Below are positions 23,945-29,249 of a DNA stretch of 59,820 nucleotides, piece after piece. Position 1 is the stretch's first letter. Each line of letters starts with the position of its first letter. The position numbers and the translations under genes were made by a program. The notes below the pieces were generated by a model. It had not been told where the DNA came from. It was given only the letters and a program-made list of their open reading frames with translations, and did no database searches. Source of the DNA: Bacteroidaceae bacterium (GTDB lineage: Bacteria; Bacteroidota; Bacteroidia; Bacteroidales; Bacteroidaceae); NCBI GenBank assembly GCA_024400995.1, contig JAKSLU010000003.1, positions 1 through 59,820 on the forward strand. The letters run 5' to 3'.

Positions 23945-23976
23945 TTTGGCACTTCGCTTACTTATTCGTAACTTTG
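23945..23976 (+). promoter_or_regulatory. Promoter of the sulfatase gene (TTTG-N20-TAACTTTG)
   Basis: TTTG at 23945-23948 and TAACTTTG at 23969-23976, 20 bases apart, 26 bases before the ATG. A full match to the consensus. Confidence 0.75.
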
Positions 23977-24002
23977 CGCAGTCATTTATAAATATATCCC
24001 AC

Positions 24003-25526
24003 ATGCGTAAGACCACATTTTCCGTTCTCTCGCTTGCTGCCCTCGGCCTCACGGCACAGGCACAGCAGCGACCCAACGTAATCTTTGTGCTGGCCGACGA
24101 CCTCGGCTATGGCGACCTGAGTTGCTATGAGGGAGAGGCACCCACTCCCCACATTGACCAGTTGGCCAGGGAGGGTGTCCGCTTTACGAACGCCCACGCC
24201 GTGGCCTCCACCAGCACGCCCTCACGCTATGGCATGCTGACGGGCTGCTACCCCTTTCGCCGTCCGGGTACCGACGTGGCTGCAGGCAATGCTGGCATGA
24301 TCATCAAGCCGGAGCAATATACGGTGGCCGATGCCTTCCATAATGCAGGATACAGAACCGCTGCCATCGGCAAGTGGCACCTCGGTCTGGGTAGCAAGAC
24401 TGCTCAGCAGGACTGGAATGGTGAACTGGACCAGACACCCAGGGATCTGGGCTTTGACTATCACTATATCATGGCCGCCACGGCTGACCGCGTGCCCTGC
24501 GTGTTCATAGAGCAGGGGCGCGTCAAGAACTGGGACCCCGAGGCTCCCATCGAGGTGAGCTACGACTGGGGAAAGCCCTTCCCCGGTGAGCCTCTGGGCA
24601 GGACCCACCCCGAACTGCTCACTAAGCAGCGCCACTCCCACGGCCACGACATGGCCATCGTCAACGGCATTGGTCGCATAGGCTATATGCGCGGTGGCGG
24701 CAAGGCTCTGTGGCGCGATGAGGACATACCCGACTCGCTGCTGCACTATGCCATCAAGTGGATTGGGGAGCAGACCATGGAGCGTGGAGAGCAGGCGGCG
24801 CCCTTCTTCATGTACTTTGCCACGAACGACGTGCATGTGCCCCGCCAACCCCACGAACGCTTCAGGGGCAAGAGCCCCATGGGTCTCAGGGGCGAGGCCA
24901 TCCTCCAGTTTGACTACACCATAGGTCAGCTGCGTGCTGCCCTGGACTCTCTCGGCATAGCCGACAACACCCTCATCATCATTACCTCCGACAACGGCCC
25001 CGTGCTCGACGACGGCTATGCCGACCGTGCGGAGGAACTGGTGGGTACGCACAAACCCGGCGGCCCCTATCGTGGCGGCAAGTACAGTGCCTATGAGGCA
25101 GGCAACGTGGTGCCCTTCATCGTGAGTGGTGCGGGTGCCAAGCGCGGCAAGGTGAGCAATGCCCTCGTGAGTCTCATCGACCTGCCTGCTACTATGGCTG
25201 CTATGGTGGGTGTGGACATTCCCGCCGGTCAGGCCACGGACTCCCGCGAGTGTCTCAAGACCTGGCTCGGTCGCAGCAAGAAGCCCGCCCCCTATCATGT
25301 CAGCATGGCGGCCAACCGCTCCCTCGAGGTGCGTGACCAGCGCTGGAAGTACATCGAGCCCTCGCGTGGTAGCATCGGCTGGGGCCCCAACATAGAGAGT
25401 GGCTACAGTCAGGAACCCCAGCTCTACGACATGAGCCGTGCGGCCTGGGAGCAGGACAACCAGGCTGAGCGTCAGCCCAAGGTCCTCCAACGTATGCAGC
25501 AACTCCTCCAGTCCATCCGCAAGTAG
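24003..25526 (+). CDS. Secreted sulfatase, serine-type
   Basis: This 507-residue enzyme of the alkaline phosphatase superfamily cleaves sulfate esters. A signal peptide (MRKTTFSVLSLAALGLTAQAQ) is followed by the metal-binding NVIFVLADDLGYGD. The active-site motif is Ser71-Thr-Pro-Ser-Arg75, the serine variant of C/S-x-P-x-R, so maturation to formylglycine needs an anaerobic radical-SAM sulfatase-maturating enzyme, not encoded here. GYRTAAIGKWHLG and ITSDNGPVLDD carry the remaining conserved residues. Closest in pattern to arylsulfatase-type enzymes acting on sulfated host or dietary glycans; the exact substrate cannot be read. The start at 24003 is set by the signal peptide and by the promoter 26 bases upstream. 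Two large repeats follow the stop. Confidence 0.93.
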   Translation: MRKTTFSVLSLAALGLTAQAQQRPNVIFVLADDLGYGDLSCYEGEAPTPHIDQLAREGVRFTNAHAVASTSTPSRYGMLTGCYPFRRPGTDVAAGNAGMIIKPEQYTVADAFHNAGYRTAAIGKWHLGLGSKTAQQDWNGELDQTPRDLGFDYHYIMAATADRVPCVFIEQGRVKNWDPEAPIEVSYDWGKPFPGEPLGRTHPELLTKQRHSHGHDMAIVNGIGRIGYMRGGGKALWRDEDIPDSLLHYAIKWIGEQTMERGEQAAPFFMYFATNDVHVPRQPHERFRGKSPMGLRGEAILQFDYTIGQLRAALDSLGIADNTLIIITSDNGPVLDDGYADRAEELVGTHKPGGPYRGGKYSAYEAGNVVPFIVSGAGAKRGKVSNALVSLIDLPATMAAMVGVDIPAGQATDSRECLKTWLGRSKKPAPYHVSMAANRSLEVRDQRWKYIEPSRGSIGWGPNIESGYSQEPQLYDMSRAAWEQDNQAERQPKVLQRMQQLLQSIRK

Positions 25527-25545: not shown

Positions 25546-25743
25546 GAGACAAAAACCAAGGATAAACCCCTTAGTGTTGCTGCAAATGTCTCTATCGAGC
25601 CATTGATGCTGGAGCTGTGCCAAATTCCTTGTAAGAGCCGCGGCTCTTACAGATAATTTGTCCCACCTCCATCATCACCCTACGGGTTTTGCATCAACCC
25701 TAAGGCGATAAACCAAAGATAAACCCTGCCTGGGTCGCATCAA
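25546..25743 (+). repeat. Structured palindromic element, copy A
   Basis: The core is 25571-25703 (133 bases) with inverted ends TTAGTGTTGCTGCAAA and TTTTGCATCAACCCTAA. Nested arms follow: GGAGCTG with CACCTCC, CAAATT (25621-25626) with AATTTG (25655-25660), and a perfect 22-base palindrome at 25630-25651. Left flank GAGACAAAAACC..AAACCCC and right flank ATAAACC..TGCCTGGGTC. It is near-identical to copy B. Confidence 0.9.
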
Positions 25744-25762
25744 ACCGCAAGTAGTGGTGGTA

Positions 25763-25959
25763 GAGACAAAAACCAAGGATAAACCCCTTAGGGCTGATGC
25801 AAATGTCTCTATCGAGCCATTGATGCTGGAGCTGTGCCAAATTCCTTGTAAGAGCCGCGGCTCTTACAGATAATTTGTCCCACCTCCATCATCACCCTAC
25901 GGGTTTTGCATCAACCCTAAGGCGATAAACAAAAATAAACCCAGCCTGGGTCACATCAA
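25763..25959 (+). repeat. Structured palindromic element, copy B
   Basis: A direct repeat of copy A at a period of 217 bases; core 25788-25920 (133 bases). The left terminal repeat TTAGGGCTGATGCAAA pairs well with the right TTTTGCATCAACCCTAA. The inner hairpin is identical to copy A, and the right flank carries the perfect small hairpin ACCCA-GCC-TGGGT. Confidence 0.9.
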
Positions 25960-25981
25960 GACGGGGAAAGCTCCAGAGGTT

Positions 25982-26022
25982 GAGACAAAAACCAAGGATA
26001 AACCCTGCCTGGGTCGTGTCAA
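25982..26022 (+). repeat. Core-less flank unit of the palindromic element
   Basis: GAGACAAAAACCAAGGAT followed directly by AAACCCTGCCTGGGTC and GTGTCAA. It contains both flanks of copies A and B without the 133-base core, so it resembles an empty or collapsed site. A further AACTAAGGATAAGCCC follows to 26037. Confidence 0.75.
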
Positions 26023-26056
26023 CTAAGGATAAGCCCACCCTCAGTGGTTAGAATTA

Positions 26057-26506
26057 ATGAGAAACTATACGATAAAACGACTGATAGATGTAGATCCTGG
26101 TCTGTGCCAAAAGCTGAAACAATGGTGCTATGACCTTAATGGATGTTGCCAGGAGGTGCACAGGGACTTGGGTCCGTTTCTCAACGAATATATGTATCAG
26201 GATGCACTGGAGATTGTACTCGAAGAAAGACAGATCAAGCCTTTTACCCGCGAGTACTATTTCTCCGTAGATTTCCACGGCAAACGTATCAATCATAGGC
26301 ACTTTGTAGACTTCTATGTAAGGGACAAGGCCTTTATTGAGTGCAAGGCAGCCGAAAAGCTCTGCGCTGACCATCGCCAGCAGTTGTGGAACTATATGCG
26401 ACTCACCAAGACGCGCATAGGCATTCTCTGGAACTTTGCTCCAACGCGTGATCAGAGTGAACACTACTATCTGGACACTGATACCGACACGATGTACATG
26501 TTCTGA
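26057..26506 (+). CDS. GxxExxY-type protein, PD-(D/E)XK nuclease fold
   Basis: This 149-residue protein matches the GxxExxY family in outline: an N-terminal helix, HRDLGPFLNEYMYQDALEIVL (the family's G..E..Y region, in variant form), then EYYFSVDFHGKRINH and HFVDFYVRDKAFIECKA, which supplies the D...ExK core of PD-(D/E)XK nucleases. The family's role is not established; small single-domain nuclease-fold proteins of this kind often sit in mobile or repeat-rich places. Here the gene lies between two direct copies of a structured palindrome on the left and an inverted copy on the right, and seems to form one unit with them. No promoter was recognised. Call by pattern, not by search. Confidence 0.75.
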   Translation: MRNYTIKRLIDVDPGLCQKLKQWCYDLNGCCQEVHRDLGPFLNEYMYQDALEIVLEERQIKPFTREYYFSVDFHGKRINHRHFVDFYVRDKAFIECKAAEKLCADHRQQLWNYMRLTKTRIGILWNFAPTRDQSEHYYLDTDTDTMYMF

Positions 26507-26585
26507 TGGCAGATCCTTTGAACGGCGTAGCCCTTGAACCCCTTGAACAATGTTGAACAACACCTGTTTTTTATTGTTTATAGCC
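26507..26585. other. Short spacer with TTGAACCCCTTGAAC repeat
   Basis: Between the GxxExxY stop and the inverted palindrome. TTGAAC-type words recur at 26518, 26533, 26542 and 26552. Related to the TTCAAGGGGG repeat at 11417. No gene seen. Confidence 0.5.
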
Positions 26586-26735
26586 TTAGGGTTGATGCAA
26601 AACCCGATAGGGTGATGATGGAGGTGGCAGAAAATATCTGAGAGCTTGCTCTCAAGGATTTTCGGACAGCTCCAGCATCAATGGCTCGATAGAGACATTT
26701 GCATCAACGCTAAGGGGTGGATATAGGTTTTTGTC
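26586..26735 (-). repeat. Structured palindromic element, copy D (inverted)
   Basis: The core is 26586-26713 (128 bases), inverted relative to A and B. On the minus strand it follows copy A base for base at the ends, but the stem arms differ in matched pairs: GAAAAT/ATTTTC replaces CAAATT/AATTTG, and TGAGAGC/GCTCTCA replaces the 11-base inner arm. The CCT and GAT spacers between stems are kept. The flank to 26735 matches ACAAAAACC..CCACCCC. Confidence 0.88.
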
Positions 26736-26762: not shown

Positions 26763-29249
26763 ATGCAAAATATAGGTATAATGAATATAGCTAAGTTTGT
26801 CCCTACAGTAGTGCTGATGCTCTGCATCGGCAGCAATGGTCTGGCACAACGTTCTGAACGCCTGCTCACGGAGTGGGAGTTCCATCGTGGTGCACTCTCA
26901 CCCAAGGCCACATGGCAGCAGGTGCGTGTGCCACACGACTGGGCCATCACGGGCCCCTTCAGTGAGGAGAACGACCTGCAGGTGGTAGCCGTCAAACAGA
27001 ATGGAGAGACGCAGCCTCTGCGCCATCAGGGGCGCACGGGCGCTCTGCCCTATAGCGGCGAGGGACACTACCGCACGACATTCAGTGCAACGAAGGGTAA
27101 GGAGGTAACGCTCATCTTTGATGGCGCCATGTCCGAGGCACGCGTCAGCGTGAATGGACAGGAGCTCATCTTCTGGCCCTACGGCTACAACTCCTTCAGT
27201 TGCAATGCCACCCCCGCCCTGCGTGAGGGCGACAACCTGCTGGAGGTCAGTCTGCGCAACAGTGAGCGCTCCTCCCGCTGGTACCCTGGTGCTGGCCTCT
27301 ACAGGAACGTACATCTCATAGAACACGAGCGCGTGCACGTGCCCGTATGGGGCACCCAGGTACTCACCGAACTCAGTCCCGCCGTTGCAGAGCCGACGGC
27401 CTCCGTCACCATCCGTACGGAACTGGCTGGTGTCCAGGTGGGGCAGCGCGTGAGTATCCACACCGAACTGCTCGATGAACAGGGACGCGTGGTGGGTAGT
27501 CGCCAGACGAGGGTAGAACCCCACTATCTCAAGCACGGTGAGGCGGTGAGTCAGACCTTCAGGGTGGAGCATCCGCTGCTGTGGAGCCCTGAGACGCCCC
27601 ATCTGTATAGTGCCGTGAGCCGCATCTATGTGGACGATGTGCAGACGGACTGCTATAGTACCCGCTTTGGCATACGCTCGATAGACTATCTGGCCGAGGA
27701 TGGATTCTACCTCAATGGCCAGAAGCGCAAGATGCAGGGCGTCTGCCTGCACCACGATCTGGGTCCCCTCGGTGCGGCCATCGACCGCAGTGCCCTGCGC
27801 CATCAGCTCACCATGCTCAAGGATATGGGCTGTGATGCCATACGTACCTCCCACAATATGCCAGCTCCCGAGCTCGTGCAGCTCTGCGAGGAAATGGGCC
27901 TGATGATGATGCTCGAGCCCTTTGATGAGTGGGATATAGCCAAGTGCGATAGCGGGTATCACCGCTGGTTTGGAGACTGGGCTACTGCCGACATGACCAA
28001 TATGCTGCGCCAGTACCGCAACTCCCCTGCTGTGGTGATGTGGAGCATTGGCAATGAGGTGCCCTCGCAGGGTAGCGAACAGGGCTACCGCACGGCCTCT
28101 ATGCTGCGTGACATCTGCCGCAGGCTCGACCCCACGCGCCCCGTGACAGCGGGTATGGACCAGGTGGACAATGCGATGAACAATGGCTTTGGTGCTACGC
28201 TGGACGTGCCGGGCTTCAACTATCGTGCCCACCGCTATACGGAGGCGCATGAGCGTTTTCCGCAGGGGCTGTTGCTAGGTAGCGAGACGGCCTCGACGGT
28301 GAGCAGCAGAGGCGTGTATAAGTTTCCTGTCGTACCCCGTTATGGTGCCTGCTATCCTGACCACCAGTCATCCTCCTACGACACGGAGGCCTGCTCATGG
28401 AGCAATGTGCCCGATATTGACTTTGCCAATATGGACGACCTGCCCTGGACGATAGGTCAGTTTGTGTGGACGGGCTTTGACTACCTCGGAGAGCCCTCGC
28501 CCTACGATACTAATGCCTGGCCCTCGCACTCCTCCCTCTTTGGTATCATCGACCTGGCCTCTCTCCCCAAGGATCGCTACTATCTCTACCGCTCGCAGTG
28601 GAACCGCCGTGAGCACACCCTCCACCTGCTGCCCCACTGGACATGGCCTGGACGTGAGGGCGAGGTGACTCCCGTCATGGCCTATACCGACGCGGAGGAG
28701 GCCGAGCTCTATCTCAATGGCCGCTCCCTCGGTGTGGCCCGCAAGCAGCCCAAGGCTCTCAGCCATGATGGGCGCAAGATCACGCTGGAGTCGCTCATGC
28801 GCTATCGTCTCGTATGGCCTGATGTGAAGTACGAGCCCGGCACCCTCGTAGTGCGTGCCCGCTACGCTGATGGCCAGGTGCTCTGTGATACAGTCCGCAC
28901 TGCTGGTGAACCTCATCACCTGCAACTGGAGTGGGCCAACGAGGGTGAGGGCGATGGCCTGCGCTACGTGACGGTGAGCATCTGCGACAAGGACGGCAAT
29001 CTCTGCCCCACGGCCAACAATGAGGTGAGCTTCAGCGTGAAGGGAGGCGCATTCCGTGCCTGCGCCAATGGCGATCCGACGTGTCTCGAACTCTTTCATG
29101 AGCCCCACATGCACGCCTTCAGCGGACAGTTGACGGCCATCGTAGACACCCCCCCCTCCAACCTCCCCCTAAAGAGGGGAGGCTCAAGTCCAGAGACAAC
29201 GCTGACGGTTAAGGCTAAGGGGCTCAAATCTGCTACCATCAAACTATAG
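26763..29249 (+). CDS. GH2 family glycosidase (beta-galactosidase type)
   Basis: An 828-residue secreted enzyme. The signal peptide best starts at the second Met (MNIAKFVPTVVLMLCIGSNGLAQ, 26781); the first ATG at 26763 would add six residues. The GH2 order is seen: jelly-roll sugar-binding domain (WQQVRVPHDWAITGPF), Ig-like domain, then the TIM barrel. The acid/base is Glu432 in WSIGNEVPSQG and the nucleophile Glu508 in LLGSETASTV. Further C-terminal domains include an Ig-like segment. The last ~30 residues contain TPPSNLPLKRGGSS, encoded by a GC-rich palindrome (29147-29183). Substrate likely beta-galactosides, possibly sulfated glycans given the sulfatase nearby. The CotH-like gene follows after 14 bases. 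Confidence 0.92.
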   Translation: MQNIGIMNIAKFVPTVVLMLCIGSNGLAQRSERLLTEWEFHRGALSPKATWQQVRVPHDWAITGPFSEENDLQVVAVKQNGETQPLRHQGRTGALPYSGEGHYRTTFSATKGKEVTLIFDGAMSEARVSVNGQELIFWPYGYNSFSCNATPALREGDNLLEVSLRNSERSSRWYPGAGLYRNVHLIEHERVHVPVWGTQVLTELSPAVAEPTASVTIRTELAGVQVGQRVSIHTELLDEQGRVVGSRQTRVEPHYLKHGEAVSQTFRVEHPLLWSPETPHLYSAVSRIYVDDVQTDCYSTRFGIRSIDYLAEDGFYLNGQKRKMQGVCLHHDLGPLGAAIDRSALRHQLTMLKDMGCDAIRTSHNMPAPELVQLCEEMGLMMMLEPFDEWDIAKCDSGYHRWFGDWATADMTNMLRQYRNSPAVVMWSIGNEVPSQGSEQGYRTASMLRDICRRLDPTRPVTAGMDQVDNAMNNGFGATLDVPGFNYRAHRYTEAHERFPQGLLLGSETASTVSSRGVYKFPVVPRYGACYPDHQSSSYDTEACSWSNVPDIDFANMDDLPWTIGQFVWTGFDYLGEPSPYDTNAWPSHSSLFGIIDLASLPKDRYYLYRSQWNRREHTLHLLPHWTWPGREGEVTPVMAYTDAEEAELYLNGRSLGVARKQPKALSHDGRKITLESLMRYRLVWPDVKYEPGTLVVRARYADGQVLCDTVRTAGEPHHLQLEWANEGEGDGLRYVTVSICDKDGNLCPTANNEVSFSVKGGAFRACANGDPTCLELFHEPHMHAFSGQLTAIVDTPPSNLPLKRGGSSPETTLTVKAKGLKSATIKL
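29147..29183 (+). repeat. GC-rich palindromic element read in frame in the GH2 gene
   Basis: The palindrome CCTCCCC..TAAAGA..GGGGAGG at 29162-29182 is preceded by eight C (29149-29156). It encodes TPPSNLPLKRGG near the C-terminus. It shares the LPLKRG peptide with the element at 8940-8990. Confidence 0.75.

Follow-up and report, generated by a model that had tools for sequence, protein, structure and literature searches.

Cloverleaf-forming palindromes bordering a GxxExxY nuclease gene suggest an undescribed kind of mobile DNA in Bacteroidaceae

The first 59,820 nucleotides of contig JAKSLU010000003.1 from a Bacteroidaceae bacterium (assembly GCA_024400995.1), hereafter called the window, carry three copies (A, B and D) of a palindromic repeat, each of which folds into a cloverleaf. 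Copies B and D bracket an intact gene for a nuclease of the GxxExxY family, and the left end of the locus is a tandem array formed by A, B and a unit devoid of cloverleaf. The repeats, whose pairing is supported to be under selection and whose relatives go with one lineage of GxxExxY genes, suggest an undescribed kind of mobile DNA working with a GxxExxY enzyme, where undescribed means not found in the literature searched, because subscription journals lay mostly outside that search. We give about an even chance to the more specific reading of the cloverleaf as a structured module at the ends of a small mobile element that belongs with one GxxExxY nuclease lineage, the nuclease acting on the folded ends. 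An earlier description of the palindromes made from the sequence alone (the original prediction) had overlooked the gene that lies between B and D, which tells more than any other part of the locus.

Structure of the repeat and selection for pairing

Cloverleaves A (25569..25705) and B (25786..25922), both assigned to the – strand, are direct copies lying 217 bp apart with 98% identity, and D (26584..26715, + strand) is an inverted copy presenting 88% identity to B, the strand being in each case the one with the lower fold energy. The comparison of the three cores with 200 dinucleotide shuffles each returned fold z-scores of –7.6 to –9.3 and no shuffle as good, and chance hairpins were rejected since all three cores folded far better than the shuffled sequences. 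An outer stem of up to about 20 pairs closes the cloverleaf; inside it follow a short hairpin (ACCC-GGGT), a long central stem interrupted by an internal loop (ATCTG / CAAGGA), and then another short hairpin (TGGCTC-GAGACA). The whole conserved module spans about 160 nt, comprising the cloverleaf of about 130 nt, an inner-side box (GTTTATCG) and a T-rich outer-side box (GGGGT...GTTTTTGT). According to the alignment, the inner box reads GTTTATCG on the – strand at A (25706..25713) and equally at B (25923-25930), and GTTTATAG at D (26576..26583, + strand). The T-rich outer box, placed by alignment and direct repeats, reads GGTTTATCCTTGGTTTTTG on the – strand at A (25550..25568) and is the same at B (25767-25785), and the aligned outer box of D reads GGTGGATATAGGTTTTTGTC (26716..26735, + strand).

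The identity and fold tests agree with the original prediction in assigning the three cores, two direct and one inverted, to one family of about 130 nt, and the paired arm changes that it had pointed out, from CAAATT/AATTTG to GAAAAT/ATTTTC with unchanged CCT and GAT spacers, are present in the sequence. Other details had to be amended: the proposed cores are real, but the conserved unit extends beyond them to the limits given above plus the outer boxes; the layout described as nested hairpins is indeed shared by the copies, but it corresponds to a four-way junction; and the inner stem, given as going from 11 pairs in A and B to 7 in D, folds in A and B as 9-10 pairs with a 4-nt loop.

In an alignment of nine copies, 96.8% of the cells pair and 13 pairs were changed on both sides. 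The covariation score of this alignment was 0.281, against a mean of 0.092 for shuffled versions (0 of 500 as high) and 0.010-0.064 for slid versions. The two-sided changes exceed both controls, and the lack of excess named beforehand as counter-evidence was not observed. Moreover, the outer arms of 40 copies paired among themselves with a median of –24.8 kcal/mol, compared with –12.3 for arms swapped between genomes; the own outer arms were better than the median swap in 39 of the 40 copies and the own central stem in all 40. With one copy kept per group, the own outer arms won in 17 of 17 groups, being the best of all in 11, and these groups represent 16 genomes at most because G405 and L080b are one assembly. 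A further alignment of 22 rows (A2) was of too low a quality for its pairs to be counted. Covariation and the arm-swap test together uphold the earlier claim of selection for pairing.

Distribution of the cloverleaves

The genome of origin (G000, 1.53 Mb, 68% complete) harbours five more copies, two on C50, two on C2 and one on C34, besides a fragment on C66, so the family is not confined to the window, a point on which the original prediction had made its proposal depend. The C50 and C2 copies form head-to-head inverted pairs separated by about 210 bp, an arrangement like that of A/B relative to D. The spacer of both pairs (L004 and L005) holds another palindrome, CTGTGAAATCTGTGGG...CCCACAGATTTCACAGA.

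Within the genus, a covariance model built from the nine cloverleaf copies (R1) found matches in 6 of 58 genomes, and within the family in at least 12 of 399, distributed in 6 of 30 genera; the family count is a lower bound because only 7 candidates per genome were scored, and cloverleaves were later found in genomes outside this list, such as G149, G142, G283, G372 and G173. An end pattern (GTTTATCGCCTTN{90,120}AAGGGG) occurred at 11 places in 4 of the 58 genomes, and its reversed control at none. A central-loop pattern was found at 31 loci in named genomes. Of these, 24 belong to records of Bacteroidales, Bacteroidaceae or Prevotella, and R1 confirmed 20 of them; it confirmed none of the remaining 7, nor any of 5 viral loci. 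Several titles of the records with cloverleaf loci name rumen material. In distant copies nearly all arm letters differ and the layout is kept.

The cloverleaf search of phage and plasmid records returned no match, and the five viral pattern matches lay in unrelated sequence without an R1 match, on which grounds a phage or plasmid origin was rejected. The search for viral relatives of the GxxExxY protein of the window found none.

Association with one lineage of GxxExxY nucleases

Profile searches identified the product of the gene between B and D (26057..26506, + strand; 149 aa) as a PD-(D/E)XK nuclease of the GxxExxY family, with 94.6 bits for PF13366 (cut-off 22) and 90.2 bits for TIGR04256 (cut-off 35), and it presented a fold match to 4ic1. 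The protein preserves the conserved G39, E44, Y47, D85 and E95-x-K97, and D85, E95 and K97 are invariant in 12 aligned rows, window included; the PD-(D/E)XK catalytic set is intact. The possibility of a defence-system protein was rejected, with no PADLOC match for the two proteins searched and weak PHROGs matches. GxxExxY genes were found in 56 of 151 genomes sampled in the family. In the literature covered by the search, GxxExxY appeared only in two passing mentions giving no role, PDDEXK_3 was absent, and the repeat strings occurred only in two unrelated papers.

Among the 15 cloverleaf-bearing genomes searched, 9 carry GxxExxY genes (17 matches, window included). An R1 cloverleaf lies near 7 of the 16 other GxxExxY loci of cloverleaf-bearing genomes; a hand estimate, which takes into account copy numbers and genome sizes, puts the expected number well below one. 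A search by protein only, with the L255 protein against the 399 genomes, produced 49 matches in 38 genomes, and an R1 cloverleaf was present at 9 of 30 loci of this set (8 of 29 without the window), which overlaps in part with the genome-based set (G256, G405, G267 and the window). The six best-ranked loci, L261-L266, have cloverleaves on both sides, recognised by R1 on both sides in L261, L262, L265 and L266, with the left one of L263 at an E of 0.025 and the right one of L264 identified by fold only; L267, L268 and most other loci of the 30 gave no R1 match. Among 90 other GxxExxY loci, which are better PF13366 matches, R1 matched at a single one, L177 (Fisher p 4e-5 relative to the protein-only loci). 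This comparison set consisted of 30 automatically chosen loci and 60 rows in PF13366 table order, short fragments being skipped, and 1 of 91 comparison genes lay too near a contig end.

In a 64-row protein tree, the cloverleaf label requires 6 changes, compared with 12.2 when shuffled (0 of 500 as low), and a 12-row group with a Shimodaira-Hasegawa-like approximate likelihood ratio (SH-aLRT) value of 94 contains 10 of the 13 labelled rows. The eight relatives found outside the family gave no R1 match. A detector of cloverleaf topology alone recognised cloverleaves on both sides of 15 out of the 30 selected loci, 8 out of 30 shuffled ones and 22 of the 90 other GxxExxY loci, with only 3 control open reading frames (ORFs) usable; as it did not discriminate, R1 matches were used instead. 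These analyses showed that cloverleaves go with one GxxExxY lineage across genera.

More generally, inverted repeats are common around GxxExxY genes. They bracket 53 of the 90 genes, in 31 of 48 genomes, whereas the controls gave 77 of 4000 flank pairs combined across genomes and 3 of 164 ORFs. With only the first listed gene of each genome considered, they are present in 22 of 48 cases, and equally high scores are reached in 27 of 89 by direct repeats on the two sides of the gene. The bracketing arms (loci L155-L244) frequently consist of about three direct repeats, each of 9-10 nt, in an array, with letters differing between genomes (for example CGCAGATNA, ACGGATTNN and ACGAATTNN), and both flanks are periodic (score of at least 10) in 28 of the 90 genes and in 5 of 139 controls. 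The 9-nt arrays are no fixed part of the cloverleaf, having been found at 8 of 40 flanks on the outer side and 8 of 39 on the inner side. Since inverted bracketing is so widespread in the family, the window is a special case of a family-wide habit. A bolder proposal can be put forward, in which the GxxExxY nuclease itself mobilises a new element class via folded four-way DNA ends, and GxxExxY proteins at large are palindrome-associated nucleases with cognate inverted repeats, cloverleaves in one lineage and about three 9-nt repeats in many others; we regard it as a tentative idea, on the unlikely side.

Evidence of mobility

The gene-less composites L101 (256-855) and L102 (4764-5453) of RUI054 present inverted tips of 38-40 bp outside the cloverleaves and internal tandem repeats between them, and are flanked by 8-bp duplications, GTTTTTAA and CCAAAATC, respectively. 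Tips akin to these occur at the copies on C2, C50 and C34 of the genome of origin and at the gene-bearing L293 of G149. In G149, the gene-bearing units L293 and L295 are 90% identical over the gene and the right cloverleaf, and the similarity stops where the right cloverleaf ends; their left cloverleaves are wholly different. The unrelated left ends beside alike right ends indicate that end modules exchange. The element is thus supported to be mobile by copies dispersed in its own and other genomes and by the two target duplications, in line with the original prediction of a mobile palindrome resembling repetitive extragenic palindromes (REPs) or miniature inverted-repeat transposable elements (MITEs).

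The tips and duplications of L101 and L102, together with the related tips at the other copies, are also what would be expected from a classical MITE, in which a DDE transposase would move the element by way of its outer tips of 38-40 bp (GGGTTCACCTGNAAAT.CCTGTGT), with the cloverleaf and the GxxExxY gene as passengers or regulators. However, the examined composites (450-700 bp) showed no transposase, nor did the ORFs of L099 when inspected by eye, no genome-wide search having been made, and inverted tips are absent or unrecognised at the window. A passenger role would moreover leave the conserved cloverleaf structure and its link to one nuclease lineage unexplained, and we consider a classical MITE rather improbable.

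DNA or RNA

One strand of the cloverleaf folds better in 37 of 40 copies, with 1 tie and 2 opposite cases, and on the better-folding strand the 1x1 mismatches comprise 24 G-U and 10 A-C (p 0.024 if the copies were independent, yet they are related). GNA was found in 31 of 42 triloops and C(GNNA)G in 25 of 67 tetraloops, GNYA loops being more frequent than GNRA (21 versus 5). GNA and GNNA loops are described as those of very stable DNA mini-hairpins (PMC4686876). These loop types count in favour of DNA, and we lean towards a cloverleaf acting as DNA more than as RNA.

The strand bias and the excess of G-U over A-C mismatches count in favour of a structured RNA, in which case the cloverleaf would be a bidirectional insulator or terminator, or a small RNA, transcribed outward from promoters within the element, with DNA mobility being secondary. 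A perfect TTTG-N19-TATCTTTG lies directly upstream of A on its strand (25714..25744, – strand, outward into the cloverleaf), one of 3 such matches in the whole window; it conforms to the sigma-ABfr-type promoter consensus TTTG-N19-TAnnTTTG as given in PMC7366714. By eye, the corresponding stretch beside B is CTTG-N19-TATTTTTG, which departs from that consensus at one base. Moreover, terminator-like sites number 9, against 1.5 in shuffles, and some coincide with inner stems. On the other hand, the G-U excess could also come from single-stranded DNA or from a G+T-rich composition, and a prevalence of GNYA over GNRA is not what RNA hairpins are known to favour. At the gathering score, Rfam returned only a tRNA in the window and no cloverleaf family, and at a lax threshold only weak microRNA-family matches far below the cut-offs, by which a known Rfam RNA was rejected. 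A structured RNA as the main function remains a doubtful alternative.

Layout of the locus

The element sits between a sulfatase gene (23946-25526, + strand) and a glycoside hydrolase family 2 gene (26763-29249, + strand). The tandem array at its left end (25546..26005) has a period of 217 bp and about 2.1 copies, namely the units with A and with B, and the start of a third unit without cloverleaf (25980..26022) was recognised from the direct-repeat family. Its sequence looks as if the cloverleaf had been deleted between the flanking direct repeats AACCAAGGATAAACCC. Similar remnants without cloverleaf are found in L014 and L015.

The 217-bp tandem duplication and the cloverleaf-less units, in the window and likewise in G052 loci, resemble direct-repeat slippage, and could be taken to mean that the cloverleaves are passive hairpins which spread without an enzyme of their own, through replication slippage and gene conversion. 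Such an origin is contradicted by the covariation across genomes, the adjacency to one nuclease lineage and the target duplications, and is judged highly improbable.

A proposed model of nuclease-associated cloverleaf pairs

The observed structure, spread and nuclease partnership of the cloverleaves can be drawn together in a model in which the nuclease would act on the folded ends and drive their spread. The basic unit would consist of an outward cloverleaf, the nuclease gene and a second outward cloverleaf, in about 0.8-1.2 kb, and the dispersed cloverleaf pairs without a gene would be its non-autonomous derivatives. In single-stranded or extruded DNA, as at replication forks or in cruciforms, each end may fold into a four-way junction, which the PD-(D/E)XK nuclease would recognise by its shape and cut at or near its foot, after which host repair would presumably copy the cut ends or join them. 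If the enzyme reads the shape and not the letters, this would explain why the arms are free to change in matched pairs, whereas the junction, the sizes of the hairpins and the boxes at the ends are kept.

Several observations weigh against this model. No nuclease is known to act on any cloverleaf. Only one copy of the window gene is present in its genome, which is 68% complete, and 6 of the 15 cloverleaf-bearing genomes searched, most of them incomplete, show no GxxExxY gene. L267 and L268 fall inside the 12-row tree group yet have no R1 match, because of which a clade made up of just the 10 labelled rows is rejected (p 0.00015), and three labelled genes (L177, L245 and L254) are placed elsewhere in the tree. 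The 90 comparison genes are better-scoring PF13366 rows and no random draw. The two cloverleaves of L262 have the same orientation instead of being inverted, and the two copies of G142 share 1443 bp, reaching beyond the element. Finally, no target duplication was seen by eye at composite L099, and none was found at the window, L293, L295 or L299, where the best common stretch was 4 nt or none.

Relation to known systems

A REPtron is a gene for TnpA-REP, also called REP-associated tyrosine transposase (RAYT), bordered by REP palindromes (PMC6006769, PMC8266576). The present element is alike in that a nuclease-type gene is bordered by inverted palindromes with more palindromes dispersed in the genome, in that structure is conserved above letters, and in that enzyme lineage and palindrome type are paired (PMC6006769, PMC8266576). 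In contrast, the gene between the palindromes of a REPtron is of the HuH/Y1 type, whereas here it is a PF13366 PD-(D/E)XK gene (Y1 genes elsewhere in the genome were not searched). The REPtron palindrome is a hairpin of 21-65 nt with a 5′ GT[AG]G foot, unlike the four-way cloverleaf of about 130 nt, whose feet read GTTTATCG, GTTTATAG or GTTTTTC-like in the copies inspected, and, also unlike REPtrons, cloverleaf units may move as a whole.

The element resembles a MITE or non-autonomous insertion sequence (IS) in its inverted tips, 8-bp duplications, gene-less forms of 450-700 bp and several copies per genome, but differs in the conserved covarying cloverleaf at each end; terminal inverted repeats plus target duplication, by which MITEs are defined, are present at L101 and L102 and were not found at L099 or the window. 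The ends of IS200/IS605 elements carry subterminal structured DNA. Structured DNA at both ends is a likeness; here, unlike there, the ends are mutually inverted and four-armed, and the unit holds no Y1 gene. Regarding the GxxExxY family (TIGR04256, PF13366), of which the window gene is a member, the link to structured inverted ends is new as far as found.

Implications

On our best reading, the element would resemble a REPtron in its way of working, with the difference that its enzyme is unrelated and its substrate would be a four-way junction. If GxxExxY proteins act on the palindromes that border their genes, a large orphan nuclease group gains a substrate and a testable assay, and REP-like palindromes in bacteria would be served by two unrelated types of enzyme. 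The covarying cloverleaf also offers a natural set of variants for studying how a small nuclease reads a four-way junction.
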